From the NCBI RefSeq assembly GCF_001458295.1, contig NZ_CYUD01000007.1, positions 1 to 64,000 on the forward strand: a stretch of DNA of 64,000 nucleotides, written 5' to 3'. Below are positions 14,870-32,898 of the stretch, piece by piece. The translations under genes and the position numbers were made by a program. The notes beneath the pieces were generated by a model. The model was not told the DNA's origin. It searched no databases and saw only the letters and a program-made list of their open reading frames with translations. The first letter of the stretch is position 1. Each line of letters opens with the position of its first letter. Source of the stretch: Ruegeria denitrificans. GTDB taxonomy: Bacteria; Pseudomonadota; Alphaproteobacteria; Rhodobacterales; Rhodobacteraceae.

Positions 14870-16579
14870 ATGAGCCTTCTGACGATCAACGACCTGACGG
14901 TCGAATTTCCGACGCGCCGCCAACTGTTCACCGCCGTTGACCACGTGGACCTGTCCGTTGAGCCGGGCGAAATCCACGGTCTGGTGGGCGAATCCGGCGC
15001 GGGTAAATCCACTATCGGTGCGGCTATCATGGGTCTGCTGGACCGACCCGGCCGTATTGCCAGCGGCACCATCAAGCTGAGCGGCGACGAGATCAGCGGT
15101 CTGGATACCGAAGCGATGCGCGGGCTGCGCGGCAAGAAGATCTCGATGATCTTTCAGGACCCGCTGACCTCGCTGAACCCTCTGTTCACAGTGCGCGAGC
15201 AATTGGTTGAGACCATTCAAGCCCATTTGGGTGGTTCGGACGCCGAGGTCAACAAACGCGCCCGTGACCTGATTGACCGTGTGGGTATCCCCGATCCTGA
15301 CACCCGGTTGGATCAATACCCGCACCAGTTTTCAGGCGGCATGCGCCAGCGCGTGGTGATTGCGTTGGCCCTGTGCACCGAACCGGATGTAATCATCGCG
15401 GATGAGCCGACAACGGCGCTGGACGTATCAGTTCAGGCGCAGATTCTGGACCTGATCAAGGAACTGGCAACTGAACGGCAGGTCGGTGTCATCCTGATCA
15501 CCCACGATATGGGCGTGATCGCAGACACCACCGACAAGGTGACGGTGATGTATGCGGGCAAAGTGGTGGAAACCGGCCCGACAGCGCAGGTCATGGGTCA
15601 ACCCAGCCACGAATACACAAAGTCGCTGATCGCCGCCGTGCCGCGCCCGACGCTGAAATTGCACCGCTTTCCGCAGATCAGCTATGGCGGTCGCGAGACT
15701 CGGTTTGCCATTGACGACATGGCGCGGCACTGGCCCAAGGTGGACAACGACACCACCAAACCGGTGTTCGAGATCCGCAATCTGACCAAGAAGTTCCTGC
15801 AGCGCAAAGGCCTGCTCCCTTGGGACCGCACCTATTTTACTGCAGTGGATGATGTCAGCTTTGATATCCGCGCGGGAGAGGTGTTTGGGGTTGTGGGTGA
15901 ATCCGGCTCGGGTAAATCCACTGTGGCACGGATGATTGCGGGGCTTTACCCAGTTGATGGCGGCACCATCACGTTCGAGGGGCAGGTGGTCAGCGACCTG
16001 ACCAACCGGGCCGCGCTGGATGCGTATCGCAAGAACATCCAGATGATCTTTCAGGACCCTTATTCGTCTTTGAACCCTCGGATGCGGGTAGACGATATCG
16101 TGGCCGAGCCAATCCGCCATCACAAGCTGATGGAAGGGTCCGATGTAAAACGCCGCGTCGATGAACTGCTGGATCAGGTCGGACTGGGGCATGAGGCCGG
16201 GCTGAAATACCCGCATGAGTTCTCGGGCGGGCAGCGTCAGCGCATCTCGATTGCGCGTGCCTTGGCCACTCAGCCGCGCTTTTTGATCTGCGACGAACCG
16301 ACCAGCGCGCTGGATGTGTCCATTCAGGCGCAGATCCTGAACATCCTGAAAGACCTACAGGAACATCTGGGCCTGACGCTGCTGTTCATTAGCCACGACT
16401 TGCCGGTTGTTCGTCAGATGTGCGACCGGGTGGCGGTGATGAAACAGGGCAAAGTTGTCGAGTTGCAAGAGACCAACGACCTGTTCGCCAACCCGCAGAC
16501 GGATTACGCCAGTGAATTGCTGCGGCTGATGCCCAGACTGGATGATCTGTCGACCGAGGGGCTGAGTGCCGAACTCTGA
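14870..16579 (+). CDS. Double-domain ABC transporter ATPase (GsiA/DppD-DppF fusion type)
   Basis: A 569-residue protein with two complete nucleotide-binding domains. The first has Walker [10 protein letters not shown], signature FSGGMRQRV and Walker [13 protein letters not shown]. The second has Walker [10 protein letters not shown], signature FSGGQRQRI and Walker [13 protein letters not shown]. Both have the peptide-importer C-terminal extension. This arrangement is that of the glutathione importer ATPase GsiA and related dipeptide systems, so one protein powers the transporter. It ends the importer operon; 116 bases separate it from the cyclase gene that begins the next, unusual cluster. 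Whether the ligand is glutathione, another peptide or a nucleobase-related compound is open. Confidence 0.93.
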
Positions 16580-16695: not shown

Positions 16696-19600
16696 ATGTC
16701 TCAGGACCTTAGGGACTGGCTAAGCGCACTTGGACTATCTGACTATGCGCAAGCCTTTTTGGATAACAAAATTGATTTCGCAATTTTGCCCGATCTGACG
16801 GGCGAAGACCTGATCGAAATCGGAGTGACCGCTGTCGGAGACCGCCGCAGGCTGCTGCGCGCGATTGCAGAGCTTGAGACGATCGAAACCGTTCAACCCT
16901 ATGAGCCGGAAACCCCGCTGGAACCCGCCAAGCGGCAGGTCACGGTCATGTTTGCCGACCTGACCGGGTTTACGCGCCTGACCAGCGAACTCGATGCCGA
17001 GGACATGCATGAACTGCTGAACGCGTTTTTCGCCAAGGTGGATCATGTGGTCGAGAAATTCGGTGGTCGGATCGACAAGCATATCGGCGACGCGGTGATG
17101 GCGGTGTTCGGCGCGCCGATCTCGCACACCAATGATACCGAACGGGCGGCGCGGGCGGCGTTGGAAATCCATGCGGTGCTGCCCGGTTTGAACCCGCCGC
17201 TGTCGTGTCACATCGGCATCGCGTCGGGACAGGTGATCGCCAGCACTACCGGCAGTCAGGCGCATACAGAATATACGGTGACGGGCGACGGTGTGAACCT
17301 GGCGTCGCGCATCACCGATATGGCGACGCCGGGTGATACTTTGGTGTCGCATGACATTCAGCGTGCGTTAGGGCCGCTTTTCGTCGGTGAGTCGTTGGGT
17401 GAAAAGCCCATCAAGGGGCTGAACGAGCCGGTCGAGCTGTGGCGGCTGGACCGGATGGCCCGCAACATCCGCTCGCGCCGGCACCGCTTTGTCGGGCGCG
17501 AGCGTGAGATGTCGCTGTTCTCGGCCACGTTCGATCGCTGCCAGCAGCACGGAAAAGGTGAGGTACATATCATTCTGGGCGAGCCGGGCATCGGCAAAAC
17601 CCACTTGTCCGAACAAGTGGCTGAGATGGCCGCAGGTCTCAACTACTCGATCCACAACGGCGTCGTCATGGATTTCGGCGCGCGTGAGGGGCATTCAGCC
17701 ATCCAGTCCGTTGCGCGCAGTATTTTGGGGCTTGAGGCCATAGATGATGCTGCCACTTGCGCGACAATGGCACAGGATGCGGTGAACAAAGGCTGGGTGT
17801 CGCCGTCCAACGCGACGCATCTGAACGCCCTGCTGGAACTGGATCAGGACCCCGGCCTGGCCGAGGTTTATGCGGTAATGGATAACGCCACCCGCCTGCG
17901 CGGACGGCGGCAAGTGATCGACGAACTGATTGCCGCTCGCAGCCGCGACGCGCCGATGCTGATCCAGATTGAAGATATCCACTGGGCTGCCCCCGAAATC
18001 CTGACCGCTTGCGCCCATATTGCTGCGACCACACGCGATTTACCTTGCGTGCTGTTGATGACCAGCCGGGTCGAGGGTGATCCGATTAACCGTGAATGGC
18101 AGATGGGGACCGAGGGGGCGCTGATCTCGAAACTGGAACTGGCGCCGATGGGGGATGAGCAGGCCCGCCAGCTGGTTCAGGAGTTCACCGGCGTAGACCC
18201 CGAGCTGCTGGAAGCCTGCGTGCGACGCGCCGGGGGCAACCCTCTGTTTCTTGAGCAACTCTTGCGCAATATTGATGTGCTGAAACGCGAATCCGTACCG
18301 GGCAGTATTCAGGGCATCGTGCAGTCGCGTCTGGATGCACTGGATCGGCGCAGTCGGGCGGCGATTCAGGCGGCCTCGGTGCTGGGGCAGCGGTTTTCGC
18401 CAGAGGTGCTGAACTTTGTTCTGGGTGAGGGGCATCTGGATACCTCGACCCTGATCCGGTCCGCCCTGATCCGCGAGGCGGGAACCGATCTGATGTTTGC
18501 CCACGCGCTGATCCGCGACGGGTCTTATGCAACGCTGGTGAAATCCGAGCGCGCGCGGCTGCACCGTCAGGCTGCGAAATGGTTCGAGGATCGCGACGCC
18601 ACCCTGCGCGCTCAGCACTTGGACCGGGCGGGTGCCACCAATGCGGCGCAGGCCTATCTGGAAGCAGCTGAAAAATTGATCCAGGCATTCCAATTCGACG
18701 ATGCCAGCCCTTTGATCGAACGGGCGCTGGAACTGCCCGCACCATCCGGCGTGCGGTTCGATCTGTTCTGTGCTCGTGGGGAAACCCACCGGTTGCAGGG
18801 CTTGTCGGATGACGCCCTGCGCGAATTCAAAGAAGCCGCCGATCTGGCCGAAACGGATGAGCAGACCGCCCGTGCCCATATCGGGCTGGCGCAGGCCGCT
18901 CGGCAGGCCAGCTCGTACAAAGAAGCGTTGCAAAGCCTCGACACGGCCGAGATCGCCGCAGAGCGATCCGGATCGGAGCGGGACATTGCGCAAATCAATT
19001 ATGTCCGTGGCAATGTGTACTTCCCGCTGGGTCGGGTCGACGATGCGCTGCAAAGCAACGAAAAGGCTCTAACACTGGCCAGAAAGCTGGAATCTGCACG
19101 ACTTGAGGTTGGCGCGCTCAGCGGATTTGGTGATGCGAATTTCATGAATGCGACCATGCAGACTGCATCGGGGTTTTATACTCAGGCGGTGGAGCGGGCG
19201 CGCGAAAAGGGGCTGGTGCGCGATCTGGCGGCGAACCTGCACAATCTCAGCGTGGCGCGCAGCTATACCGGTGATGTGGCGCAAGGCAAACTGGATGCAC
19301 AGGAAGCCATTGATGTGTCCCAAAAATACTTTGCCTTTGTGCCGGAATGCGTAGCCCAGACCTGTCTGGGCGTAGCGCATACTTTTCTGGGCGAGTTGGA
19401 TCAGGCCTTGGAGACGTTCACAGTTTCAGCCGAAATTGCCAACCGTGTTGGTGCGAAACGGCTTGAGGCGCAGGCGTTAGAGCATCTGGCCCGCACACAA
19501 GTCTACGCGGGGCAGTTGGACGCGGCTCGGGAGACCGGTCAGCGGGCTGTCGATATCGCGCTGGAACATGGGCGGAATTTCGTAGGACCAAAGGCACTGT

Positions 19601-19959
19601 CGGCGCTGGCCATGGCTGAGAAAGACCCTAACAAACAGGATCAGCATCTGAAACTGGGTGCACAGATCATCGCCGAAGGCTGTGTCGGACACAGCCACTT
19701 GCATTTCTATCCCGATGCCAGCGCCGTCATGTTGACGCGACAGGAATGGGACAGGGCGACTGAATATGTTGACGCGCTGGCGAAATTCACCGCCGGTGAA
19801 CCCTTGCCGATGGTCGACTTGTCGATACAGCACGCACGGGTTCTGGCCGCGTGTGGAGGGTGGGGCATCCCCATGGACGCGCACGAGGAATTCGAAGCGC
19901 TGGGCGCGCGCTTTGCCGAGATGGGCATCACGCAGTCTCTGGTCGGACGGTTGAACTAG
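16696..19959 (+). CDS. SAM domain - class III adenylate cyclase - ATPase - TPR signalling protein
   Basis: A 1087-residue protein of four parts. Residues 3-60 form a SAM domain (WLSALGLSDYAQAFL...). Residues 79-250 form a class III nucleotide cyclase: metal Asp88 in FADLTGFT and Asp132 in HIGDAVMAVFG, transition-state Asn and Arg in GDGVNLASR, and Lys128, which favours ATP. Residues about 265-680 form a STAND-like AAA ATPase with P-loop GEPGIGKT at 295-302 and a likely Walker B MLIQIEDIHW. From about 690 to the end are TPR-like helical repeats. This layout is known from adenylate cyclases with regulatory ATPase/TPR tails. It probably makes cAMP in response to a bound partner. It lies 16 bases ahead of the channel-like gene, suggesting an operon. 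Confidence 0.85.
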   Translation: MSQDLRDWLSALGLSDYAQAFLDNKIDFAILPDLTGEDLIEIGVTAVGDRRRLLRAIAELETIETVQPYEPETPLEPAKRQVTVMFADLTGFTRLTSELDAEDMHELLNAFFAKVDHVVEKFGGRIDKHIGDAVMAVFGAPISHTNDTERAARAALEIHAVLPGLNPPLSCHIGIASGQVIASTTGSQAHTEYTVTGDGVNLASRITDMATPGDTLVSHDIQRALGPLFVGESLGEKPIKGLNEPVELWRLDRMARNIRSRRHRFVGREREMSLFSATFDRCQQHGKGEVHIILGEPGIGKTHLSEQVAEMAAGLNYSIHNGVVMDFGAREGHSAIQSVARSILGLEAIDDAATCATMAQDAVNKGWVSPSNATHLNALLELDQDPGLAEVYAVMDNATRLRGRRQVIDELIAARSRDAPMLIQIEDIHWAAPEILTACAHIAATTRDLPCVLLMTSRVEGDPINREWQMGTEGALISKLELAPMGDEQARQLVQEFTGVDPELLEACVRRAGGNPLFLEQLLRNIDVLKRESVPGSIQGIVQSRLDALDRRSRAAIQAASVLGQRFSPEVLNFVLGEGHLDTSTLIRSALIREAGTDLMFAHALIRDGSYATLVKSERARLHRQAAKWFEDRDATLRAQHLDRAGATNAAQAYLEAAEKLIQAFQFDDASPLIERALELPAPSGVRFDLFCARGETHRLQGLSDDALREFKEAADLAETDEQTARAHIGLAQAARQASSYKEALQSLDTAEIAAERSGSERDIAQINYVRGNVYFPLGRVDDALQSNEKALTLARKLESARLEVGALSGFGDANFMNATMQTASGFYTQAVERAREKGLVRDLAANLHNLSVARSYTGDVAQGKLDAQEAIDVSQKYFAFVPECVAQTCLGVAHTFLGELDQALETFTVSAEIANRVGAKRLEAQALEHLARTQVYAGQLDAARETGQRAVDIALEHGRNFVGPKALSALAMAEKDPNKQDQHLKLGAQIIAEGCVGHSHLHFYPDASAVMLTRQEWDRATEYVDALAKFTAGEPLPMVDLSIQHARVLAACGGWGIPMDAHEEFEALGARFAEMGITQSLVGRLN

Positions 19960-19975: not shown

Positions 19976-21139
19976 ATGAGCATCGAAAAGAAGGTTTGGT
20001 GGATTTCCGGTGTCCTGACTTTTGCTCTGGGAGTTCTGTTGTTCAAACTTCTTGTCGCCCTAAACCATTTCGAGGGCGACCCGACGCAACTGCCGGATCA
20101 GGCTTCAGTCGATGACTATTTGCAAAAGTTGGGCAATGTGCCCGATTACCAGGTGAAAACTGGCATTTTCATCAAGTCCTTCAGCTTTACCGGCGCCAGC
20201 GATGTGCATGTCAGCGGTTATGTCTGGCAGCACTACGAAGACGGCGTTCATGACGCGATCAAGCCGACCAAGAAAGAGGTGGGTTTCATCCTGCCCGAGG
20301 CTGTCGACGCCGCGAATGGCGTGATCGAAGAGGCGTATCGCATGGATCAGGACGGTGCGACCCTGATTGGCTGGTATTTTGAACAGACCCTGCGGCAGAG
20401 CTTTGACTACACCAGTTACCCTTTCGATCACAAAACAGTCTGGGTTCGGTTCTGGCCCGGTGAGTTTGACGTGAATGTGGCTCTAATCCCTGACTTTACG
20501 TCCTATCCTGCCACTGGGTCCAATGACATCTTCGGCATAGATCCTCGCATCGTCATGGGCACGTGGGAGCGTGAGAACACTTACTTTGACTATCGCCTGT
20601 CCGATCTGGATACGACGATGGGTATCGGCGAAAACGAATTTCAGACCAACCTGCCCGAGCTGCACTATAACTTCGTTATTAAACGAAATTTCGGGAACGC
20701 GTTCATCGTCCACATGGTCCCTCTGATCGTGGTCACGATGCTGTTGTTCGGCGCGGTGATGACCGTGACCCGTCGCCCCGAACTGGTCGAGCGGCATGAT
20801 TTCAGCACCTCCAGCGTGATTGGTACCTGTTCAGTCCTGTTTTTTGTGATTCTGCTGGCCCATGTGCAATTGCGCGAAGGCTTTGCCGGATCGCCGGTGA
20901 TCTACATGGAGTCGTTCTTTTTCCTGATGTATTTTCTGTTGCTGGCGGTCTCGATCAACACCTACCTGTTTGCGTCGGAAGCCGTGCCGTCCCTGCGGTT
21001 CATCCACTACAGGGACAACCTGTACCCAAAGGCCGCGTTCTGGCCATTTGTTCTGCTGTGTATGGTGGCGATCACGGGCTACAACCTCAGCCTCAAGGCG
21101 GGGCCTGAGGATGAGACCGTGATCGAAACCCACAACTAG
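19976..21139 (+). CDS. Membrane protein resembling a pentameric ligand-gated ion channel
   Basis: A 387-residue protein I identify by motif and topology, not by close similarity. Residues 7-28 are a hydrophobic signal anchor. Residues about 40-240 are a soluble, beta-rich region containing YPFD (148-151) followed by HKTVWVRFW, like the Cys-loop F/YPxD signature of prokaryotic channels that lack the cysteines. Four membrane segments follow: 241-263 after an IKRNFG stretch and with a central Pro249, 278-298, 307-332, and 353-373. The LLAHV...SPVIYM...FFFLMYF pattern across the second and third segments resembles bacterial GLIC. This gives an extracytoplasmic ligand domain and a C-terminus outside, as in that family. 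It follows the cyclase gene closely; its stop overlaps the stop of the convergent fusion gene by four bases. Confidence 0.55.
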   Translation: MSIEKKVWWISGVLTFALGVLLFKLLVALNHFEGDPTQLPDQASVDDYLQKLGNVPDYQVKTGIFIKSFSFTGASDVHVSGYVWQHYEDGVHDAIKPTKKEVGFILPEAVDAANGVIEEAYRMDQDGATLIGWYFEQTLRQSFDYTSYPFDHKTVWVRFWPGEFDVNVALIPDFTSYPATGSNDIFGIDPRIVMGTWERENTYFDYRLSDLDTTMGIGENEFQTNLPELHYNFVIKRNFGNAFIVHMVPLIVVTMLLFGAVMTVTRRPELVERHDFSTSSVIGTCSVLFFVILLAHVQLREGFAGSPVIYMESFFFLMYFLLLAVSINTYLFASEAVPSLRFIHYRDNLYPKAAFWPFVLLCMVAITGYNLSLKAGPEDETVIETHN

Positions 21140-24100
21140 GCGAGCGGTTGGTACCCCGGTTTTGGCGTGCCAGTGGCCATGTCCAGCGTGTAATCCGCCA
21201 CAATCCCTGAAGTCCCCTTTTCCCACTCGTCCAGATACTTGGTCGGATGCGCGATCACATAGGTATAGGCGGGCTTTTTCACGCCATCTATCAACACGTT
21301 GATCCGCTTGCGGACATAGACATTCTCGGGCGAGTTAGGGCCGTGATAACCTTCAAGCTTGTCCAGCTCTTTCATCCCAGTGGATGAGACGCGATAGACC
21401 TCGCCCCGCACTGCCTTGCCGCGGCCCTTCTGATCGACCAGCGTGGCCATTCGATGCAGAAATCCGCAGTTTGGATTGTCGCAGAACGGTTCGTGCGGCA
21501 CGATCAGGGGCATGCGCTGGCGTGTTATGGCCTCGCCCACGAAATCATCCAGCACTTCAGCATGGGCGTCGTGGTTCGGGAACCCCCTCTTCAACGACCC
21601 ATATGTGAAGTAGAGGAAAGTCTTTTCCCGATCCTCGATCAGGTCACCTTCGTCCTCTTCCTCCAATTCAGTCAGGGTGTGGGTGTTGGCCCAATCGTCC
21701 AGCATCGCCTGTATCTCATCCGAGACCTTGGCGTCCTTGGCGTTTTTGGGGTTCTGCAGGAAGTGAATGCACGCGCTGGCGTCGATGCCATCAGCCCCCA
21801 ACAGAATTTTCACCATCTCGACCGAGTTGTTCATCACCGCCACATGCAGGCTGGTAAAGCCGTGGTCATTGCTGGCGTTGACGTTGATGCCACGGTCGAT
21901 CAGCGCCTGCGCGGCCTCAAGGTCGGGCTTACCCAGATCCAGCCCGCTCTCGTTCATCTCACCTTCGCCGCCTGCCGCATAGTGCAGCAGCGTATCACCG
22001 TTGCTGTCGTCGACGATGTCGATCCCGGCCATGCTGTTATCGATGGCCTGAAACACCCGATCCCATTGTGCGAACTCGTCCGAGGCGGCGGCCTCTTGCG
22101 CCCATTTGCAGATGTTGTGTTCTTGATCGGCCAGTTCCTCGAAGGCTTCGTCCAGAACCTCCATGATTTGATCCGGGGTGGCCATCATACCGATCCCCAT
22201 CATGCCGTTGGACAGCCGCCCCTTGCGCGGCCCGACCAGATCAATACCTAGATCGCGCAGTTTTTCGACATTGTTCTGGGTGGTGATGTTGTTCCACATA
22301 TTGGTGTTGCAGGCGGGGCAGAGGATCACCGGTTTGTTCCGGTATTGCCACGCCACAAATACCGAGGTCAGCAAGTTGTCGGCAATCCCGTTAGCGATCT
22401 TGCCCATCGTGTTGCAGGTCACCGGCGCCACGATCACGCAATCGGCCCAGTCGCACAGCGCCAGATGCGAGGCGCGCAAGGGCATGCCGAACTCAGTATA
22501 ACGAAAGTTCCACTCGTCATCGTCACGGTAATAATCGTGATGCGAGATGTAGTCTTCAATTGTTTTGGGTCGGATCGTCCTGACGTTTCCGGATTCCTCC
22601 TCTACTTCGATATCGCGAAAGAACTTCTCGGCCGATACAGACGGGATGAGTTTGACGTTATGCCCAGCCTCTTTGATCAGCTTCACCAAATCCGGCACCT
22701 TGTCCGCTGCCGAGGATCCGCAGGCGCAAAGCAGCACGTTGCGCTTTTCACTGGGGGCGTCCGTAAGTCCGCCCTTTGGATAGCCAAAGATGTTCTTATC
22801 CAGGCTAGGGGATTCATGGCGCAGCAATACCGGCAACCCAGCCTCTTTGACGCGCCGCTGAAAGCTACCATCAAGCACCACATCCTCGATGTCTTTCCGC
22901 CTTCCCAGGCATTCACCTTGGAAAAACAGGTAAGGCACCTTTTCCTTGCCGGTCATCATGGTCAGTTGTCGACGCATCTTCATCACATTCGCTCCGTGAC
23001 CTTCGATGTCGATCAGCCGAGCCGTGGTGATGCCGATATTGCGCAACATACTGCGCAGCATGTAAGACCATGGGTCTTCGTCTGCATAGAACAGCACGAT
23101 CTCGTTCTTTGCCACGATGCGCGCCACGTCAGTGGGATCTTCGGGCGGTTCCTGTTCCTCGATCACCAGCATGGCGGGGTTCTTGAGGTCGCGCAGACCA
23201 CGGAAAACGTGCCCGCGCGGGGCCTGCCAGACTTGCGAGGTCGCGGGGCTCATATCCACTACAGTCACCAGATCGGTGTCCTCGTCATACGCGATGCAGA
23301 GACACCAGAATTCTTCCAGCAAGGCGGTTTCGCGATACACGTTCTCGGGCGGGCGTATGACTTCAAACCCCAGTACACGGTTGAAGTCGATATTGATCAT
23401 CAGATGACGATCCTGTTCTGCGTTCAGGCTGTGCAGTTGAGCGCGGAACCAGTCTTCCGGGGATTTGTCGTCTCCGCCTTTGCTTTTGGCATAACTTTGG
23501 AAGGTACTGCCCAGATGCACGTCCGGGGATTGGCTGAGATAACGTCGCGCCATAGCGTGCATCTGTTTCGTGGTCGACACCCGGCTGAGCGCATCTGTGA
23601 AATCGGTTTGGGTGGCGATCAGCAGCTTGTCTTCATCGACCTGTGCATCCCCAAGGATCGCCAGGCTTTCCGCCAGCACACCCAGCGAGTTCATGTTCGG
23701 GCTGGCTCGTCGGAACAGGTTGCGGCGTTTCTTGGGGTCCTTGGCAAGATACAACGTGCTGTCCACATAGTTGCAGTCCTGCTGCAGGGTCTGCAGGTTG
23801 GTCTTTACCGCCTCACGCGCCGAGAACCGCAAGATGCCCCGTGACCGCATCGAGGTTCCGTCGCGGTCCGACATCCCGGCCCAGAGCCGGTCGATAGTGG
23901 TAACCCAAAGCTTGCCGTATTTCTCGGGGTGCACATCCATCATATGCACCAGCCCGGTGCTGGGATTGCACTTGGCGATGATGGCAAAGTGGCCGCCCGG
24001 CATGGTCGGTTTGCCATGGGCCACACCGACCTGAAAATTCGCCACCAGAATGTCGTTATCCCCACCCAGCCGGTTGGATTCGTCGATCGCCTCAAGCAGC

Positions 24101-24762
24101 AATTCGACCGAGGTCGTGGCCTCATCCATGAAATAGGCCTGAACCTGTACCTTGTCGCGCAGGTCTTGCGAGTGGATAAAAGTGCAGGCGACGTCGTAAA
24201 GTTCACCCAGCGAGATACCGTCATTGACCACGAAAGACGTGGGCAAAGCACATTCGCGAAAGATATCGTTGACCTCGCAACTGAACCCCAGCGCCGACAT
24301 GCTCAGCGCTGCCGCCGTCACACTGCAGCAATTGATGGGTTGCTGAAAGTTTTGCAGATGCACGCTGACCAGATCGCCGAACAGGGTGTCATAGCAGGCC
24401 TCGCGGATATCGGTCGGAATTTCCAGCCAACGGTTGCTGGACAGATAAGCCAGCTTGGTGCCGGGTGTGGCCAAAGCTTCGAGGCTGACGGGAATATCAA
24501 AGATCTCCAGATGTTCCTCGTAGAAATAATCGCCTGTATCGGCCGTTGCGAGAACTGTCTCGTCCTGCCGCAGATGTACCTCGCCATCCAGAACCACATA
24601 CATGCCCTGGGATGGCAGGATCGTGTCCTCGGCCACCTCGAAACACTCGAAATGCGGTTGGATTACAGTTGGATCATCGGCGGGCAGAACCTCTTGTATC
24701 AATGCCCATTCGGATTCGGTTGGATGATAGGAAATAGTGTTTTCAATCGGGTCTTTAGGCAC
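21136..24762 (-). CDS. Multidomain fusion: cNMP-like / phytochelatin synthase / glutaredoxin-like / HFCD flavoprotein / ankyrin / GGACT-like
   Basis: A 1208-residue protein. Residues 25-125 form a cyclic-nucleotide-binding-type beta barrel, but the phosphate-binding Arg is not evident. Residues 138-315 match phytochelatin synthase: Cys146 in NCCSVTAA, His258 in GGHF and Asp276, with the His-Asp spacing of 18 found in plant PCS. Residues about 350-535 look like a second, dead copy. Residues 552-640 have a glutaredoxin fold with cis-Pro610, but DPWS replaces CxxC. Residues 674-875 form an HFCD cysteine decarboxylase (His766, PVTCNT, PACNTNMW). Residues 919-990 are ankyrin repeats. Residues 1047-1180 resemble gamma-glutamylamine cyclotransferase (YGSLKRGFPNH, Glu1137). 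All parts are in one uninterrupted frame; no signal peptide was seen. It probably processes glutathione-derived peptides in the cytosol. Confidence 0.85.
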   Translation of the reverse strand: MPKDPIENTISYHPTESEWALIQEVLPADDPTVIQPHFECFEVAEDTILPSQGMYVVLDGEVHLRQDETVLATADTGDYFYEEHLEIFDIPVSLEALATPGTKLAYLSSNRWLEIPTDIREACYDTLFGDLVSVHLQNFQQPINCCSVTAAALSMSALGFSCEVNDIFRECALPTSFVVNDGISLGELYDVACTFIHSQDLRDKVQVQAYFMDEATTSVELLLEAIDESNRLGGDNDILVANFQVGVAHGKPTMPGGHFAIIAKCNPSTGLVHMMDVHPEKYGKLWVTTIDRLWAGMSDRDGTSMRSRGILRFSAREAVKTNLQTLQQDCNYVDSTLYLAKDPKKRRNLFRRASPNMNSLGVLAESLAILGDAQVDEDKLLIATQTDFTDALSRVSTTKQMHAMARRYLSQSPDVHLGSTFQSYAKSKGGDDKSPEDWFRAQLHSLNAEQDRHLMINIDFNRVLGFEVIRPPENVYRETALLEEFWCLCIAYDEDTDLVTVVDMSPATSQVWQAPRGHVFRGLRDLKNPAMLVIEEQEPPEDPTDVARIVAKNEIVLFYADEDPWSYMLRSMLRNIGITTARLIDIEGHGANVMKMRRQLTMMTGKEKVPYLFFQGECLGRRKDIEDVVLDGSFQRRVKEAGLPVLLRHESPSLDKNIFGYPKGGLTDAPSEKRNVLLCACGSSAADKVPDLVKLIKEAGHNVKLIPSVSAEKFFRDIEVEEESGNVRTIRPKTIEDYISHHDYYRDDDEWNFRYTEFGMPLRASHLALCDWADCVIVAPVTCNTMGKIANGIADNLLTSVFVAWQYRNKPVILCPACNTNMWNNITTQNNVEKLRDLGIDLVGPRKGRLSNGMMGIGMMATPDQIMEVLDEAFEELADQEHNICKWAQEAAASDEFAQWDRVFQAIDNSMAGIDIVDDSNGDTLLHYAAGGEGEMNESGLDLGKPDLEAAQALIDRGINVNASNDHGFTSLHVAVMNNSVEMVKILLGADGIDASACIHFLQNPKNAKDAKVSDEIQAMLDDWANTHTLTELEEEDEGDLIEDREKTFLYFTYGSLKRGFPNHDAHAEVLDDFVGEAITRQRMPLIVPHEPFCDNPNCGFLHRMATLVDQKGRGKAVRGEVYRVSSTGMKELDKLEGYHGPNSPENVYVRKRINVLIDGVKKPAYTYVIAHPTKYLDEWEKGTSGIVADYTLDMATGTPKPGYQPLA

Positions 24763-25161
24763 GTCTGTTCCCCCCCTGAACTAAGCCGTGAATGTCGTCA
24801 AAGAACCAATGCTGCGTCTTGTGGCATGTGTCAGGCGTCTGATGGTCAAACAGAAATAAGGGACCGGCCCGACGGATTCTGCACTGGCCGGGCCGACAGA
24901 ACGCGCACGCTCAGCGCGAACAAATGGGCCCAATAGGACGCACCGTATCGCATTTGGAGACAAAAATCACCGATGTTGTTGATTTGACTATACGAGTTCG
25001 GATTGTGGCTTTTGCCACCCGCTTTCTGCCAGCTACATACTGAACAATATGTCGGATTTTACGTCAAAATGACGCATCTTTCCGCGTTTTCGTCAAGAAT
25101 ACCCCTGCGGATCGAACAGCCAACGCCCCATACTTTTCATAAACGAAAGAGGAGGCGCGTT
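24763..25161. other. 399-bp divergent promoter region
   Basis: This gap separates the fusion gene (left, minus strand) from the lysine catabolic genes (right, plus strand) and must hold both promoters. An open frame runs through its right part on the plus strand but has no codon-use or start support. The one distinct element is the palindrome at 25062-25074. A 7-bp inverted repeat with a long loop (CGGCCCG/CGGGCCG, 24865-24895) is also present. Confidence 0.4.
25062..25074. promoter_or_regulatory. Palindrome CGTCA-AAA-TGACG, possible operator
   Basis: A 5-bp inverted repeat with a 3-base spacer lies 88 bases upstream of the TTG start of the saccharopine dehydrogenase-like gene. It could bind a regulator of lysine catabolism, but it is short enough to be chance and no regulator gene is adjacent. 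Confidence 0.3.
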
Positions 25162-26268
25162 TTGAGCTGGAATATTTGTGTCATAGGGGCAGGCAAGATC
25201 GGTCAGATGATCGCCAGCCTGCTGCAAGCATCATCGAACTATTCGGTCACCGTCGCTGATCGCGATTTGGCAGCGCTGTCAGTGCTGAACAAGCAAAGCA
25301 TTGCGACCCGGCAGATCGACGTGGGGGATGAAGCGCAACTGACCCAGGGACTAAGTGGCTTCGATGCCGTGATCTCGGCTGCTCCGTTCTTTTTGACGCC
25401 GAAGATCGCCAAGGCGGCCAAGACCGCAGGCGCGCATTACTTTGACTTGACCGAAGACGTTGCAGCCACCAATGCGGTGCGCGAACTGGCCGAGGACAGC
25501 GATACCGCCTTCATGCCGCAATGCGGTCTGGCACCGGGGTTCGTTGGCATTGCTGGCGCGTCGCTGGCGGCCGAATTTGATGAGTTGGACAGCCTGCATA
25601 TGCGGGTTGGTGCTTTGCCGCTCTATCCGACCAATGCGTTGAAATACAATCTGACCTGGTCGACTGACGGGCTGATCAACGAGTACTGCAATCCCTGCGA
25701 TGCTATCGTCAACGGCGAGCGCGTGAAAACCGCGCCGTTGGAAGATTACGAAGTGCTGGGCCATGACGGGGTTGAGTACGAATGCTTCAACACGTCCGGC
25801 GGGTTGGGCACGCTGCCCGAAACGCTTGAGGGAAAGGCGCGGGCGGTGTCTTATCGGTCGATCCGCTATCCCGGCCATTGCGATATCCTGAAGCTGTTGC
25901 TCAAGGATCTGGGGCTGGAGCGCCGCCGCGATCTGTTGAAGGATATTTTCGAAACCGCCCTGCCGCGCACCGATCAGGACGTGGTGCTGGTCTATTGCAC
26001 CGCCAAGGGCATGATCGACGGCACGCTGCGCGAGAAATCCCTGATCAACAAAAGCTTTGCCCGAACCCTCAACGGCCAGGTCTGGAGCGCCATTCAGGTC
26101 ACCACCGCCGCAGGCGTTCTGGGCGTGGTCGATCTGATGCGCACCGGGGGGCTGCCCGCAAAAGGGTTTATCCGGCAGGAGCGGGTGAGCTTGCCCGATT
26201 TCCTCAACACCGAATTTGGCCGGCTCTATCTCGCCGGTGATGTAACTGAACAGAACAAGGCGGCCTGA
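25162..26268 (+). CDS. Saccharopine dehydrogenase / L-lysine 6-dehydrogenase family protein
   Basis: A 368-residue NAD(P)-dependent dehydrogenase with an N-terminal Rossmann motif [13 protein letters not shown] and the family motif [14 protein letters not shown] near residue 120. I place the start at TTG 25162: AGAGGAGG lies seven bases ahead and the Rossmann strand begins at once, whereas the longer frame adds an implausible 53 residues. The protein would form 2-aminoadipate 6-semialdehyde, either from saccharopine or directly from lysine; its length is closer to lysine 6-dehydrogenases than to yeast saccharopine dehydrogenase. The ALDH7-type gene three bases downstream would oxidise that aldehyde, so these two genes form a lysine catabolic operon. 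Confidence 0.85.
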
Positions 26269-26271
26269 GAT

Positions 26272-27783
26272 ATGAAAGACATCGTGATGACTGCGCAAAC
26301 CACCCTGGCAAATCTGGACCTGACCGAGGCCGAACTGACCGGCGGCACGCTCAAGGTGACTTCGCCGATTGACGGCGGCCTGCTGGCCGAAGTGCATGAA
26401 ACCCCGGTTTCCGAAATAGAGGCCATCTTTGCCCGTTCGAAAGCGGCCTTCCAGGCATGGCGCACTGTGCCTGCACCGCGCCGGGGCGAGTTGATCCGCC
26501 TGCTGGGCGAAGAACTGCGCGAAGCTAAGGACGATCTGGGCGCGCTGGTCAGCTGGGAGGCTGGTAAGATCACCTCTGAAGGTCTGGGTGAAGTGCAGGA
26601 GATGATCGACATCTGCGACTTTGCCGTCGGTCTCTCGCGCCAGCTCTACGGTCTGACCATTGCATCCGAACGTCCGGGCCACCGGATGATGGAAACCTGG
26701 CACCCGGCGGGTCCGGTTGGTGTGATCTCGGCTTTCAACTTCCCCGTTGCTGTCTGGTCGTGGAACGCAGCGCTGGCGCTGGTGTGCGGCGACACTGTGA
26801 TCTGGAAGCCGTCTGAGAAGACTCCGCTGACAGCGATGGCCTGCCAGAAAATCTTTGAACGCGCACTGGCCCGGTTCGGCGACGCGCCCGAAGGCCTGTT
26901 GCAAACCCTGATCGGCGGTGCCGCGCTGGGCGAAGCGCTGGTGGCCAGCGAGGATGTGCCGGTGGTCTCGGCCACGGGTTCTACCCGTATGGGTCGCGCG
27001 GTGGCTCCTATTGTGGCGCAGCGGTTTGGCAAATGCATTCTGGAGCTGGGCGGTAATAACGCGATGATCGTTGGCCCTTCGGCCGATCTGGAAATGGCGG
27101 TGCGGGCGATTGTTTTCTCGGCCGTGGGTACTGCTGGACAACGCTGCACCACGCTGCGTCGTCTGATCGTCCATAATTCGATCCGTGAAGAGCTGGTGAG
27201 CCGTCTGAAAAAGGCTTATTCCGGGCTGCCCATTGGTAACCCACTGGCCGAGGGTACTCTGATCGGTCCGCTGGTGGATGAGGCATCGGGCGCCGCAATG
27301 ACCGCGGCGTTGAAAGCGGCCGAGGCCGAAGGCGGCACCGTGTTTGGCGGTAACCGCGTGACAGAAAATGTGCCTGCCGGTGTCTACATGGAACCCGCCA
27401 TCGTCGAAATGCCCGGTCAGAGTGATGTAGTGAAAACCGAAACCTTTGCCCCGATCCTCTATGTCATGGGCTATGACGATTTTGACGATGCCATCGCGAT
27501 TCAGAATGACGTCCCGCAGGGCCTATCCTCTTGCGTGTTCACCCTGAACATGCGCGAGGCCGAGCAGTTCCTGACCGCAGCCGGGTCGGATTGCGGCATT
27601 GCCAACGTCAATATCGGGCCTTCGGGTGCCGAAATCGGTGGTGCATTCGGCGGCGAGAAGGAAACCGGTGGCGGACGTGAAAGCGGTTCGGACGCGTGGA
27701 AGGCTTATATGCGGCGTCAGACAAATACCGTGAACTATTCGGCGGAATTGCCACTTGCCCAAGGTGTGAAGTTCGACATCTGA
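26272..27783 (+). CDS. amaB: ALDH7-type 2-aminoadipate 6-semialdehyde dehydrogenase
   Basis: A 503-residue aldehyde dehydrogenase of the antiquitin (ALDH7) group. It shows ELGGNNAMIV (catalytic Glu), TAGQRCTTLRRL with the catalytic Cys near residue 288, and FNFPVAVWSWNAALAL in the cofactor site. The QRCTTxRR form of the Cys motif separates ALDH7 from other aldehyde dehydrogenases. It would convert 2-aminoadipate semialdehyde to 2-aminoadipate with NAD. It starts three bases after the dehydrogenase gene's stop, or at a second ATG at 26287, and belongs to the same operon. A clear hairpin at 27792-27819 ends the transcript. The amaB symbol is by function, not by synteny. Confidence 0.85.
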   Translation: MKDIVMTAQTTLANLDLTEAELTGGTLKVTSPIDGGLLAEVHETPVSEIEAIFARSKAAFQAWRTVPAPRRGELIRLLGEELREAKDDLGALVSWEAGKITSEGLGEVQEMIDICDFAVGLSRQLYGLTIASERPGHRMMETWHPAGPVGVISAFNFPVAVWSWNAALALVCGDTVIWKPSEKTPLTAMACQKIFERALARFGDAPEGLLQTLIGGAALGEALVASEDVPVVSATGSTRMGRAVAPIVAQRFGKCILELGGNNAMIVGPSADLEMAVRAIVFSAVGTAGQRCTTLRRLIVHNSIREELVSRLKKAYSGLPIGNPLAEGTLIGPLVDEASGAAMTAALKAAEAEGGTVFGGNRVTENVPAGVYMEPAIVEMPGQSDVVKTETFAPILYVMGYDDFDDAIAIQNDVPQGLSSCVFTLNMREAEQFLTAAGSDCGIANVNIGPSGAEIGGAFGGEKETGGGRESGSDAWKAYMRRQTNTVNYSAELPLAQGVKFDI

Positions 27784-27791
27784 TCGAATCT

Positions 27792-27819
27792 TCCGGCGGC
27801 ATCAATGGGTGCCGCCGGA
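27792..27819. terminator. Hairpin between convergent genes
   Basis: TCCGGCGGCA and TGCCGCCGGA form a perfect 10-bp stem with an 8-base loop. It fills the 36-base gap between the ALDH stop and the stop of the convergent glycosyltransferase gene, so it could serve both. No T-tract follows. Confidence 0.55.
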
Positions 27820-29397
27820 TCAATCCGCGAATAAGTAATCCAGTCGCATGACGGCCTGCGCCTTGTCATCCGAGACACCCAGAAACTTGGCAACTGTTGC
27901 TTCGTTCTGGGCGTGTGTGCTCGTCTCGCGGATACGCAAGTATCCGTCGAACCCCGCGCCCCGGATCAACTCGGATTCATAGGCCAGCGAATTACGCAGG
28001 GCTGGTACAAGGCGCGTCACGGTTTCCGTCGGGCTGGTTTCACCGGCCAGACCAACCCGGCGGGCGTGGCCGATCAGATAGTCATCGGAATAGTCGCACT
28101 CGATCTCAAGAACGTGGGTTTTGGCCTGATCCGAACAGAAGTCCTGAATGATATCCAAATTGCCCGGGTCCACACAGAGCACCAGCTTGTCGGTCTGGAA
28201 ATGGTCGAACAACATCCGCACGACCGCGCGCCGGTGGCGAGAGCGTTTGGCCAGAGTTGTTTCGATACCGCCCAGATCGGGCAGCAGGGTGTCTTCTTCG
28301 TTGAACAGGTATTCGACACAGCGGATGTCGGTCTCGGACACAATTTGATCGACCAGACGCTTGGCCACGTGCCATTTTTTGCAGGTGATCAGAAAAAGCT
28401 CACGTTCAGAGCCCAACGTATTCCCGGCCTCCCAGAATCGTCTTCCAAAGCGGCGGCCGACGCGCCCGCGCCCGGTCAGGAACCCATAAAGGTTGCGCCC
28501 TTCATCCGAGATCTGGAAGTCGACCCCTTCGCTGGAATAGAGCTGACCCAGCCGCTCTTTCAACTCATGCGCCTCGGGGCTGATCTTGCGGGCAAACAGG
28601 TAATCCTGCCCCAACAGCATGTCATAGTGGTCGTTGTAAAAGGTGACCGGCATCCCGTAATCTGAGAACATCAGGAAGGTCGGCGTGCGGTTTTCAATTT
28701 CTTCTTTCGGGATTAGATGGCGGACGAGGGTCTGGAAAAATGTCTCATCTGGAATCCATGTGGTTGAGAAGAAGCGAACCACATCCGGGCGCTTTTGCAG
28801 GAAATCGAGGATCATTTCGACCGTGCGACGGCGCAGGCACCACCATTGGCTGCCGATCATGATCTGCAAATCCGCCGGTATCTCGCGCGTCAGGCCAAAG
28901 CGTTTCTGCAAGTTGTAGGCGGTATAGAACCGTCTGCTCTGCGTGCGTTCGTTGAAAAAATAGCGATAGATCAGCCGGTCTTCTTTCATGCCGGTCTTGA
29001 TCCAGTTGCTGGCAAAGAAATCGTGACTTTCAACGAAATCCTTGTCGTTTTCGTCCAGAAACCAATGGATGTATTCGGCGGTTTTGATCGCCATGCAATC
29101 GCCGGACAGCATGTAGAAATGGGTGACACGCGGAAATGCATCCACCGCCGCTTGAACCGCATTAAGGGTTGCCTGTACCAATGACCATTCGCCCCAACCG
29201 CACTTGATGCGCTTGGCGGCAAAAGCCACATTCGGGTTGTCCCTCAACGCGTTGCGAATGCGGTCATACGCTGCTTTACTGGCGCGCACGTCAAAGTGGA
29301 TGGCCATGCAGTCGCCTGCAGCCGTCAACTGCTCAGCCTGCGCGATGATCGCATCAGGGTCCTTATGGCACAGTAGAATGTAAGCAATCTTTGCCAT
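27820..29397 (-). CDS. Core-2/I-branching type glycosyltransferase (DUF5928-like)
   Basis: A 525-residue protein. Its N-terminal 250 residues match the GT14 core-2/I-branching N-acetylglucosaminyltransferase fold: IAYILLCHKDP at the start, then DVRASKAAY, VTHFYMLSGDCMAIKT and IMIGSQWWCLRR. The C-terminal half is the less understood domain found with it in roseobacters. I choose ATG 29397, preceded by GAAGG, because the frame further upstream is unlike coding sequence. The enzyme probably adds a sugar branch to a surface glycan. It is divergent from a sulfotransferase gene 141 bases away, so synthesis and sulfation of the same glycan is a reasonable inference. Confidence 0.75.
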   Translation of the reverse strand: MAKIAYILLCHKDPDAIIAQAEQLTAAGDCMAIHFDVRASKAAYDRIRNALRDNPNVAFAAKRIKCGWGEWSLVQATLNAVQAAVDAFPRVTHFYMLSGDCMAIKTAEYIHWFLDENDKDFVESHDFFASNWIKTGMKEDRLIYRYFFNERTQSRRFYTAYNLQKRFGLTREIPADLQIMIGSQWWCLRRRTVEMILDFLQKRPDVVRFFSTTWIPDETFFQTLVRHLIPKEEIENRTPTFLMFSDYGMPVTFYNDHYDMLLGQDYLFARKISPEAHELKERLGQLYSSEGVDFQISDEGRNLYGFLTGRGRVGRRFGRRFWEAGNTLGSERELFLITCKKWHVAKRLVDQIVSETDIRCVEYLFNEEDTLLPDLGGIETTLAKRSRHRRAVVRMLFDHFQTDKLVLCVDPGNLDIIQDFCSDQAKTHVLEIECDYSDDYLIGHARRVGLAGETSPTETVTRLVPALRNSLAYESELIRGAGFDGYLRIRETSTHAQNEATVAKFLGVSDDKAQAVMRLDYLFAD

Positions 29398-29538
29398 ATT
29401 GCCTTCGCAAAGTTCGTTTCTGCCTGTTTGCACCCTGATACTGAGGATGAGCGATTGAATAAACAGAATATTTTTGGTTCTGTGTGGGCAAAAGCGATTG
29501 TGTTTAATGAATTCTGATCCGTTTAGGAGGCGCAGAGA

Positions 29539-30357
29539 ATGGGTTTTCCCGGCACATGGATGACCGAAAGTGAAAGCATGGTTTATCGTGTCGTGCCGAA
29601 ATGCGCGTGTTCGACCATTGGGCAGATCATGTATTACTCGGACCACGGCCGATTCTTTGATGGAGATATCCATGACGCGAAGGGCGGAATGCATAAATGG
29701 GCCTTTGACAGCAGTCAGGGCAAGATTTCGAACAATGTTCAAAATCACACGTCTTATTCATTTACCTGCGTGCGCAACCCGTACACTCGTATCCTAAGCT
29801 CATTCTTCGACAAGATTTGCGGTATCCAGCGGAACGGCAGCCGGTATCGCGGCAATCTGGTGCCGACGCTGATCTATAATTACGGGATCGAGGTGGGCGG
29901 CGATGACGGCAAGGGTGAGTTTGACCAGGTCGCCAGCTTCCGCCGCTTTCTGTTGTTTGCAAGGGATACAATCCGTTGGCGTCGGCCGATGGACCCGGAT
30001 ATTCATTGGTCAGCCATGTCGGGTCATGTTTCGACCTTCATCGTGAATGGCGGGCGCTACGACCGCATTTTCTGGACCGAGAAATTCAGCGATGGAATGC
30101 AGAGGGTGCTGGATAACCTGGACACGCCCCACGCGGTCAGCCTGTCAGAAATTCCACGGTTCAACGAATCCGAAGGGCACGGTCCAAAACGCGCGCATCC
30201 GGTCGAGGATTATTTTGACGATCTCTCCATGCATCTGGTCTATGAAATCTACAAACAGGATTTTGAGCTGTTCAGATACGATTTTGAAAACCCCGCGAAC
30301 AAGATGCCGATAGGCGAGATCGATCTGGATGAGGTTCACGCCAAGCTGGGCGACTGA
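29539..30357 (+). CDS. Sulfotransferase family protein
   Basis: A 272-residue PAPS-dependent sulfotransferase (family 2 type). YRVVPKCACSTIGQIMYY near residue 16 is the 5'-phosphosulfate loop, with Lys and Ser/Thr, and TCVRNPYTRILSSFFDK near residue 76 is the 3'-phosphate loop. ATG 29539 is preceded by TTAGGAGG. No signal peptide or membrane segment is evident, so it acts in the cytoplasm. It probably sulfates the product of the divergent glycosyltransferase. It is unlike the AT-rich sulfotransferase at 279-1139 in base use and sequence; the two appear to be independent acquisitions. Confidence 0.8.
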   Translation: MGFPGTWMTESESMVYRVVPKCACSTIGQIMYYSDHGRFFDGDIHDAKGGMHKWAFDSSQGKISNNVQNHTSYSFTCVRNPYTRILSSFFDKICGIQRNGSRYRGNLVPTLIYNYGIEVGGDDGKGEFDQVASFRRFLLFARDTIRWRRPMDPDIHWSAMSGHVSTFIVNGGRYDRIFWTEKFSDGMQRVLDNLDTPHAVSLSEIPRFNESEGHGPKRAHPVEDYFDDLSMHLVYEIYKQDFELFRYDFENPANKMPIGEIDLDEVHAKLGD

Positions 30358-30420
30358 CCTGCGACCAGGTCGGTGCTCCCGCCCATCGTCTACGCCTCTG
30401 ACGAGACATCTCCTCTGGTT

Positions 30421-30455
30421 GGGCCCGGTGCCGCGCTTTGCGCAGCACCGGGCCC
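30421..30455. terminator. Long GC-rich hairpin after the sulfotransferase gene
   Basis: GGGCCCGGTGC and GCACCGGGCCC form a perfect 11-bp stem, 64 bases after the sulfotransferase stop and facing the convergent Nudix gene. It lacks a T-tract, but its strength suggests transcription termination or mRNA end protection. Confidence 0.5.
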
Positions 30456-30506
30456 AAGGACGAACGTAGCATTGGCGCAGCCACTGGTGCGGTTTGTGCG
30501 CGGGAG

Positions 30507-30530
30507 GCTGTCTGAAGCACTTCAGACAGC
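30507..30530. repeat. 24-bp near-perfect palindrome at the Nudix gene's 3' end
   Basis: GCTGTCTGAAG-CA-CTTCAGACAGC has 11-bp arms and overlaps the last codons and stop (30522-30524) of the Nudix gene. It can fold as a hairpin in either transcript. It is likely part of the terminator pair separating the convergent genes. Confidence 0.5.
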
Positions 30531-30974
30531 GATCAATCTCTGTTTCAGGCCGGTGGGATAAAGGTGCGGGCCGTTGGTCGTATCGAGTTCGCTTAGGGCT
30601 CGCCATTTGGCTTTGCACATGATGCCATTTTCTTCGGCAAAGGTGATCGTGGTGTCCGGTAGAGCAGATGGATTGGAAAGGGTCGCGTCAGCCGCAAAAA
30701 TTACCTCGTGCCCCAACTGCCCTTCGTGGCGATAGATGTTTTCCAGAACCAAGGGTGTTTTCGCAATTTGAACGTCGACGCCAAGTTCTTCCTGAAACTC
30801 GCGTATCAGCGCGTCCCGCCAAGTTTCACCGAATTCAACTGTACCGCCCAGGGGGCGCACTCCCTTCAGGTTGCCACTATCGTCATAAACGTCAGCAACC
30901 AAAAGGCGAGACTCCCGCCACAGCAAGCCAATTGCCTTGACCCGAATTCCTTGATGTGGCCGCCAGATCGTCAT
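30522..30974 (-). CDS. Nudix hydrolase
   Basis: A 150-residue hydrolase of nucleoside-diphosphate-linked compounds. The complete Nudix box is seen as GGTVEFGETWRDALIREFQEELGV near residues 39-62, with the REFQEEL glutamates that bind magnesium. I choose ATG 30974, preceded by GGAAAG; a longer frame upstream adds 18 residues without support and runs into the ilvD terminator. The beta sheet is short and the substrate cannot be predicted. It is a single-gene unit between the ilvD terminator on one side and strong hairpins on the other. The gene reads in the same direction as ilvD. Confidence 0.88.
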   Translation of the reverse strand: MTIWRPHQGIRVKAIGLLWRESRLLVADVYDDSGNLKGVRPLGGTVEFGETWRDALIREFQEELGVDVQIAKTPLVLENIYRHEGQLGHEVIFAADATLSNPSALPDTTITFAEENGIMCKAKWRALSELDTTNGPHLYPTGLKQRLIAV

Positions 30975-31010
30975 CAACTTTCCTTTCGCGCACGCTGTGA
31001 CCAAAAAGGA

Positions 31011-31043
31011 AAAGGCCGCGCTGCACAATACAGCGAGGCCTTT
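31011..31043 (-). terminator. Rho-independent terminator of ilvD
   Basis: AAAGGCCGCGCTG and CAGCGAGGCCTTT form a 13-bp stem with one mismatch and a 7-base loop, 22 bases past the ilvD stop. Reading leftwards on the minus strand it is followed by TTCCTTTTT. Confidence 0.8.
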
Positions 31044-31065
31044 GGGAAGGTTATCGGGACCCGGA

Positions 31066-32898
31066 TCAGACCTGACGCACGGCCCCTTTTGCCGCGCTGG
31101 TGGTCAGCTTGGCATAAGCCTTGAGCGCGGTTGACACCTTACGCTTGCGGGGCGCGGACGGGACCCAGCCTCTTTCGTCCTGCTCTTTCCGCCGTGTGGC
31201 CAGTTCCTCATCAGATACGGCCAGATGGATCGAGCGGTTGGGGATGTCGATTTCGATCTTGTCGCCTGGACATACCAGTCCGATTTCACCGCCCTCGGCG
31301 GCTTCGGGTGAGACGTGGCCAATCGACAGGCCCGATGTACCGCCCGAGAACCGGCCGTCGGTCAGCAGGGCGCAGGCTTTGCCCAGACCTTTGGATTTCA
31401 GGTAAGAGGTCGGGTACAGCATTTCCTGCATCCCCGGACCACCGCGTGGGCCTTCGTAGCGGATCACCACCACGTCGCCCTCTTTGACCTTACCGGTCAG
31501 AATGTCGTTCACCGCCTGATCCTGGCTTTCGCAAACATAGGCCGATCCGGTGAAGGTCAGGCTGTTGGGATCAACGCCAGCGGTTTTCACGATGCAGCCA
31601 TCGCGGGCGATATTGCCGAACAGTACCGCCAGACCGCCATCCTGACTGAAGGCGTGCTCTTTGGACCGGATCACGCCGCCCTCGCGGTCGGTATCCAGTT
31701 CTTTGTACCGGTTCGACTGACTGAAGGCCTGCGTGGTGCGCACTCCGCCGGGGGCGGCTTTGAACAGGTCCTGCGCCTTGGGGTTGTTGGCGACCTTGAT
31801 ATCCCAGTTGGCAATCGCTTCGCCCATGGTACCTGAGTGGACGGTGCCGCAATCCTCGTGCAGCAATCCGGCACGGCTGAGCTCGCCAAGGATCGAGAAG
31901 ATGCCACCGGCGCGGTGGACGTCCTCCATATGCACATTCTCGGTGTTGGGTGCGACCTTGCACAGGCAGGGGACATTGCGGCTGAGTTTGTCCATGTCTG
32001 ACATGGTGAAATCAACTTCGCCTTCATGTGCAATAGCCAGCAGGTGCAGAACGGTATTCGTCGACCCGCCCATGGCGATATCAAGGCTCATCGCGTTCTC
32101 GAACGCATCGAAGGTTGCGATCTCGCGCGGCAGGAAGCCTTTTTCGTTCAGATCGTAATGGCGCTTGGTGATCTCAACGATGCGGCGACCGGCCTCAAGG
32201 AACAGGTCTTTGCGGTCGGCATGGGTGGCCAGAGTCGAGCCATTGCCCGGCAGTGCCAGACCCAACGCCTCAGCCAGGCAGTTCATCGAGTTGGCGGTGA
32301 ACATGCCCGAGCAGGACCCGCAGGTGGGGCAGGCATTTTCCTCGATATGCTGCACCTGTTCATCGGTGTACTTGTCATCTGCCGCGGCAACCATCGCGTC
32401 GACAAGGTCGATTTTTTTGACGTCCAGATCGGCGATATCGATCTTGCCGGCCTCCATCGGACCGCCCGAGACGAAGATCGCCGGAATGTTCAGGCGCATC
32501 GCGGCCATCAGCATACCCGGCGTGATCTTGTCACAGTTTGAGATGCAGACCATCGCGTCAGCACAGTGCGCGTTGACCATGTATTCCACCGAATCCGCGA
32601 TCACTTCGCGCGAGGGCAGCGAATACAGCATCCCGTCATGGCCCATGGCGATGCCGTCATCCACCGCGATGGTGTTGAATTCCTTGGCGACACCGCCCGC
32701 AGCCTCGACCTCACGCGCGACCATCTGGCCCAGATCCTTCAGATGGACGTGGCCGGGAACGAACTGGGTGAACGAGTTGACGATGGCGATAATCGGTTTG
32801 CCGAAATCGTCATCCTGCATACCGGTGGCGCGCCACAGGCCGCGGGCACCGGCCATGTTGCGGCCATGGGTTGAGGTTCTGGATCGGTACATTGGCAT
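31066..32898 (-). CDS. ilvD: Dihydroxy-acid dehydratase
   Basis: A 610-residue iron-sulfur enzyme making 2-keto acids for valine, isoleucine and pantothenate synthesis. Hallmarks are [15 protein letters not shown] (first cluster Cys near residue 121), [19 protein letters not shown] near residue 190, and [17 protein letters not shown] near residue 520. Length equals the usual 610-616 residues. ATG 32898 faces a divergent XRE-cupin regulator gene, with a perfect 16-bp inverted repeat between them, 43-83 bases upstream of this start; the gene may therefore be controlled by that regulator. A good terminator follows at 31011-31043. Confidence 0.97.

Follow-up and report, generated by a model that had tools for sequence, protein, structure and literature searches.

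A fusion gene and its domains

The window analysed here is a 64,000-nucleotide stretch of Ruegeria denitrificans (contig NZ_CYUD01000007.1, positions 1 to 64,000), in which a gene on the minus strand at 21136..24762 encodes a single 1208-residue protein, with a GTG start at 24762, a stop at 21136-21138 and a G-rich run resembling a ribosome-binding site before the start (24776-24770). On the plus strand, it is met by a gene for a SAM domain, class III nucleotide cyclase, AAA ATPase and TPR protein (1087 residues; 16696..19959) and a gene for a predicted pentameric ligand-gated ion channel (387 residues; 19976..21139). A first-pass annotation, which stated no strand, had described the 1208-residue frame as a multi-domain protein, and both the frame and the domain order held up in a Pfam scan judged by family cut-offs in bits, in custom profiles for the phytochelatin synthase (PCS), barrel and other domains, and in the AlphaFold model of a relative with 91% identity, whose folds match AtHAL3a, Nostoc PCS and human gamma-glutamylamine cyclotransferase (GGACT). 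From the N-terminus, the protein consists of a cyclic-nucleotide-binding-type barrel, a PCS domain, a likely second PCS copy, a glutaredoxin fold devoid of active cysteines, an HFCD flavoprotein domain, ankyrin repeats and a GGACT domain. Conservation was assessed in an alignment of the window protein with 43 of its 70 database relatives (44 rows), in which gaps at the start of P0071 and at the end of P0069 and P0070 explain the missing cells.

The PCS domain (residues 120-322; 23797..24405) was recognised by Pfam, profile and model: Phytochelatin (PF05023) scores 37.9 bits at residues 140-309 against a cut-off of 24.9, and a profile built from the family reaches Nostoc Alr0975 with an E-value of 2e-7; the papain-like fold is present as well. 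The triad of Cys146, His258 and Asp276, proposed earlier to be intact, is kept in all 43 rows with letters there; His258 and Asp276 align with the Alr0975 triad, and Cys146 was paired by position. Alr0975 (2btw, 2bu3) shares the fold and the Cys/His/Asp triad but is a half-size protein, whereas here PCS is one of seven domains and is accompanied by a likely degenerate second copy. This second copy (residues 322-545; 23128..23799) is likely, though not proven: it is predicted to contain the same 14 secondary-structure elements as copy one in the same order, which supports the earlier suggestion of a duplicated domain, whereas the profile match between the copies, although collinear, is weak (P 0.006, probability 6%). 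Asn358, Trp486 and Asp503 occupy the positions paired with the triad. Another unusual PCS fusion was found among the database proteins, where P0082, from a Xanthomonadales bin, joins a PCS domain to a glyoxalase-type region; both P0082 and P0083 are 1012-residue proteins with a PCS domain.

The HFCD domain, of the phosphopantothenoylcysteine-decarboxylase type (residues 660-885; 22108..22785), was likewise identified by Pfam, profile and model, the Flavoprotein family scoring 98.9 bits at residues 675-869 (cut-off 22.7), in line with the cysteine-decarboxylase flavoprotein first proposed. His766, Asn819 and Met822 are kept in 44/44 rows and correspond to AtHAL3a His90, Asn142 and Met145, which passages of PMC9604783 describe as required for decarboxylation. 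The HFCD fold, the active His and a PXMNXXMW-type motif with its Asn and Met are shared with AtHAL3a, human PPCDC, EpiD and MrsD; in contrast to AtHAL3a-type enzymes, the domain is fused, has Asn in place of Cys175 and carries invariant Cys783 and Cys818 inside the HFCD motifs. A role in coenzyme A biosynthesis was considered and rejected: the fusion scores 119.9 bits with the CoaBC equivalog TIGR00521, under its cut-off of 219.7, while the same genome encodes a separate CoaBC that scores 411 bits, so the fused domain is not needed for this function.

At the C-terminus, the GGACT domain (residues 1045-1208; 21139..21630) matches its Pfam family at residues 1051-1175 with 54.3 bits (cut-off 22.8), and the profile and the model agree. 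The fold, the YG(T/S)L loop (Tyr1054-Gly-Ser-Leu) and the equivalent of catalytic Glu82 are all present, the latter as Glu1137, which is kept in 42/42 rows with letters there. Compared with structures, the profile reached GGACT with an E-value of 1.8e-11 and human GGCT with just 0.26; GGCT-type glutathione cleavage was thus rejected, and the proposed gamma-glutamylamine-cyclotransferase-like domain was upheld. The relative's model also matches the PCS and GGACT-type folds predicted for residues 138-315 and 1047-1180, the regions singled out in the first-pass annotation for a structural check. Human GGACT (3jub) has the fold, loop and catalytic Glu in common with the fusion, differing in Thr9, which is Ser here, and in the fusion to ankyrin repeats. 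An insert with Cys1094-x4-Cys1099-x3-His1103 (21454-21483), invariant in 42/42 rows, resembles a metal site and is without counterpart in mouse and human GGACT.

The remaining domains were also as anticipated. Ankyrin repeats and a linker span residues 885-1040 (21643..22110), with a Pfam match at residues 910-994 and support from the model; ankyrin is missing from the precomputed Pfam list in 6/70 family proteins. The glutaredoxin fold (residues 546-655; 22798..23127) stays under the Pfam cut-off. Glutaredoxin active sites are usually CPxC/S, whereas the corresponding residues 563-566 read DPWS in the fusion and hold no Cys in 44/44 rows. The barrel (residues 8-122; 24397..24741), whose cNMP_binding match is also under the cut-off, was assigned as a degenerate barrel through profile matches to PKG (E 2.6e-11 summed over several cyclic-nucleotide domains, the best single domain giving 0.05) and to a PKA regulatory subunit (E 1.4e-5).

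Distribution and a split form

The fusion is not a chance frame, since 70 database proteins (45-92% identical) match it, 65 of them over at least 95% of the query, which also meant that the search for the same domain order proposed at the outset was positive. A profile search returned 87 proteins, among them PCS didomains that stand alone, as well as CoaBC and ankyrin proteins. PCS, HFCD and GGACT occur together down to 48% identity, while P0070 (45%) and P0069 (57%) have no GGACT. Carriers include Ruegeria, Seohaeicola, Roseivivax and Roseibacterium, as well as bins and single cells named Roseovarius, Rhodospirillaceae, SAR116, Halieaceae and Aestuariirhabdus. The spread is patchy, with the fusion present in 18/37 congeneric genomes and in five of the 394 genomes that served as a sample of the family, counting its own. 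The A2 profile matched 10/385 genomes of the class, the window's own strongly, the next best with an E-value of 1.8e-9 and the others over short stretches; it also matched nine of 151 genomes of the cyanobacterial family, of which one bin (G454) alone was strong. A viral or plasmid origin was considered for the gene, and no match was found.

In this bin of an uncultured cyanobacterium, a gene for the glutaredoxin-like, HFCD and ankyrin domains (488 residues) overlaps a GGACT gene (162 residues) at locus L053, and a separate gene for the barrel and both PCS copies lies on another contig (contig 60), where it is cut by the contig end; the bin may include stray contigs. Six standalone PCS didomain proteins (P0073-P0078; 534-558 residues) keep the triad in 6/6 cases. 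The fusion thus brings together pieces that a single genome can also encode separately, a pattern to be expected if they carry out steps of one pathway. Homologues encoded separately and with unrelated functions would have spoken against the assembly-line proposal; separate genes, three in number, do exist, within one bin. Upstream of the overlapping pair lie OsmC-like, FIST and GAF-cyclase genes (L053:6024-9238), followed by a 195-residue frame, and the same enzyme thus stands beside a different cyclase make-up.

Other neighbourhoods differ as well. At a SAR116-type locus (L044:3278-10643), a MetE-like (PF01717) gene lies upstream, and class I aminotransferase and SDR genes follow downstream in the same orientation. 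The surroundings of the Halieaceae fusion gene (L052:15816-18509) include DUF3291, FGE-sulfatase/DinB and Methyltransf_33 genes, the latter two of which look similar to EgtB and EgtD from the ergothioneine pathway. In a phylogenetic tree, the pairing of L052 with L053 is a long-branch join and unsafe.

The linked cyclase and predicted channel

The channel gene starts 16 bp past the cyclase gene and shares a tail-to-tail overlap of 4 bp with the fusion gene. The cyclase gene has no NCBIfam match above a cut-off. For the channel, single-sequence and first-profile searches gave nothing usable (two chance matches, E 2.5 and 3.6), and a 41-row profile gave 62 matches, of which all 60 listed are GLIC-type with E-values of 0.038 and worse. 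Its identification as a pentameric ligand-gated channel is therefore a prediction resting on the model and on signature residues. All 50 PDB matches listed for the model (predicted local distance difference test score 77) belong to the pentameric ligand-gated superfamily. The Pro-loop residues given in passages of PMC4795631 comprise F/Y-P-x-D, a beta9 Trp, a pre-M1 Arg, an M1 Pro and an M2-M3 Pro; in the predicted channel, Y148, P149 and D151 (within YPFD, 148-151), W197, R237 and P249 are invariant in 41 rows, while the seventh residue, the M2-M3 Pro, was not identified in this alignment. Unlike ELIC, GLIC and other prokaryotic pentameric channels, it has one extra N-terminal helix and shares its locus with a thiol enzyme and a cyclase.

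Among 41 loci, the membrane protein was found in 32 and a cyclase gene in 33, counts limited by short contigs. Fusion, channel and a close cyclase (74-100% identical) stand side by side in the same 18/37 congeneric genomes, while the other 19 have no channel and no close cyclase, some carrying more distant cyclase paralogues. As these genomes are related, the pattern reflects a single block that is passed on or lost as a unit, and the 18 cases do not count as independent. At L059 and L051, the fusion gene follows a cyclase gene of the same orientation; these linked cyclases are 31-33% identical to that of the window, no closer than unlinked paralogues (29-41%), and may therefore be separate recruitments. 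At L035, one strand carries, in this order, the fusion gene, a cyclase gene, a SnoaL gene and a gene for a channel fused to a dCache domain, the last (L035:10695-12866) being a 33% identical channel homologue with an N-terminal dCache-type sensor domain. After the cyclase-fusion pair of L059, in genome G201, lies an MscS-type channel gene (L059:12734-14449), not a pentameric channel.

A proposed route from glutathione to an aminothiol

From the computed domains, predicted folds, conserved residues and gene linkage, we infer the following chemistry, product and channel ligand. The PCS domain would take glycine off glutathione to yield gamma-glutamylcysteine, a removal reported for Nostoc PCS in passages of PMC7411734. 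The flavoprotein would then oxidatively decarboxylate the C-terminal cysteine to gamma-glutamyl-aminoethenethiol, perhaps reduced to gamma-glutamyl-cysteamine, from which GGACT, an enzyme for gamma-glutamylamines, would free 5-oxoproline and the aminothiol. The modules fit chemically, since PCS cleavage would expose the very C-terminal cysteine needed by HFCD and decarboxylation would make just a gamma-glutamylamine; the GGACT-type assignment likewise agrees with gamma-glutamyl-cysteamine being formed late in the pathway. Glutathione or intermediates may be held by the degenerate PCS copy and by the glutaredoxin fold that has no active cysteines. Sequential chemistry on gamma-glutamyl peptides had been suggested at the outset; the intact catalytic residues support it in part, and the steps themselves are drawn from family chemistry. 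That glutathione is taken apart in steps to give glycine, CO2, 5-oxoproline plus a two-carbon aminothiol, either cysteamine or the unreduced enethiol, is the reading we favour, with a probability of about 0.55. The linkage and the barrel suggest that the linked cyclase could place this chemistry under the control of cyclic nucleotides. For the linked channel, the likely ligand would be the amine product or a related amine, as suggested by the linkage and by ELIC, for which passages of PMC3119659 report the strongest response at low concentration with cysteamine (EC50 0.365 mM). That the block as a whole forms a transmitter system, in which cysteamine or a close aminothiol is made under cyclic-nucleotide control with the ELIC-like channel as its receptor, is an unlikely extension.

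Several observations weigh against the favoured route and its extension. The ELIC table of the same source gives 0.23 mM, by calculation, for singly charged putrescine, and cysteamine is thus not unique. A PCS of another cyanobacterium shows transpeptidase activity, according to passages of PMC7411734. The channel was not found at 9/41 loci and the cyclase at 8/41, some with short flanks; these include all six SAR116/Rhodospirillaceae-type loci, distant homologues lack both genes nearby, and the channel family, with at least 559 proteins, is far wider than the fusion system. The cysteamine dioxygenase family was found in 0/37 genomes, the controls likewise giving 0, which makes this result uninformative, and no signal peptide was seen by eye in the fusion enzyme. 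Since the ligand domains of such channels face outward, the channel could sense the enzyme product only once it is outside the cell. The phosphate-binding cassette motif carries a phosphate-binding Arg that is missing from the barrel (no Arg at position 92 in 43/43 rows), so cyclic-nucleotide control may not be direct. Finally, AtHAL3a Cys175, which is required for enethiol reduction according to PMC9604783 in the passages cited above, is replaced by Asn852, an Asn in 44/44 rows, and cysteamine itself may therefore not form.

This replacement is also the basis of a rather less likely alternative, in which the flavoprotein stops at the enethiol and GGACT frees unstable aminoethenethiol, which would give mercaptoacetaldehyde and ammonia; the fusion would then serve glutathione catabolism or supply a reactive thiol, not cysteamine. 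AtHAL3a-type chemistry lacking Cys175 stops at this point, so the product may indeed be the enethiol, and EpiD stops there too, although Cys783 and Cys818 may stand in for Cys175 as reductant. Alternatively, the locus could resemble Pycsar, with the cyclase answering infection or stress, its product binding the barrel, glutathione being destroyed and the channel adding a membrane leak. Both have a class III cyclase next to a protein that carries a cyclic-nucleotide-binding-like domain, the barrel being fused here to a potentially destructive enzyme; the cyclase matches PycC models (best E 4e-18), the barrel profile reaches PycTIR weakly (E 0.73), and a GAF-cyclase of different make-up lies upstream of the split form. 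However, the PycC models probably recognise class III cyclases in general, the barrel has no cassette Arg, and the present locus differs in that the partner is a metabolic protein with several enzyme modules, the cyclase has a SAM-AAA-TPR make-up, the channel is predicted to be ligand-gated and metabolic genes lie on both sides. Seven neighbouring genes (14870-16579 and 25003-32898) read as an ABC transporter, saccharopine and aldehyde dehydrogenases, a glycosyltransferase, a sulfotransferase, a NUDIX protein and a dehydratase; within this part of the window, PADLOC returned for these neighbours ATPase-type matches to the ABC protein and one weak match to the NUDIX protein, and it gave one weak ankyrin match (1.5e-4) for the fusion and none for the channel. 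We regard a Pycsar-like function as improbable. Detoxification of glutathione S-conjugates, with PCS clipping glycine from the conjugate and the other domains finishing the breakdown, is held to be just as doubtful: HFCD enzymes of this type depend on the cysteine thiol being free, and in a conjugate it is blocked, even though cyanobacterial PCS is described as acting on such conjugates in passages of PMC7411734.

In the open-access literature, subscription papers lying outside the scope, we found no described system joining PCS, HFCD and GGACT chemistry, nor any in which a cyclase and a pentameric ligand-gated channel are linked with such chemistry. The initial statement that no described protein combines the three catalytic modules stands to that extent, and we rate the system as new, its single modules being known. 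If the favoured reading is right, the fusion would represent a new pathway by which marine bacteria, including Ruegeria and SAR116, turn glutathione into a two-carbon aminothiol. According to a passage of a 2016 survey, no biological role was known for any such channel in unicellular organisms (PMC4795631); the locus would then offer a concrete lead on that role and make it testable. Should the transmitter-system extension also prove true, a prokaryotic pentameric ligand-gated channel would for the first time have both a natural role and a native biosynthetic source.
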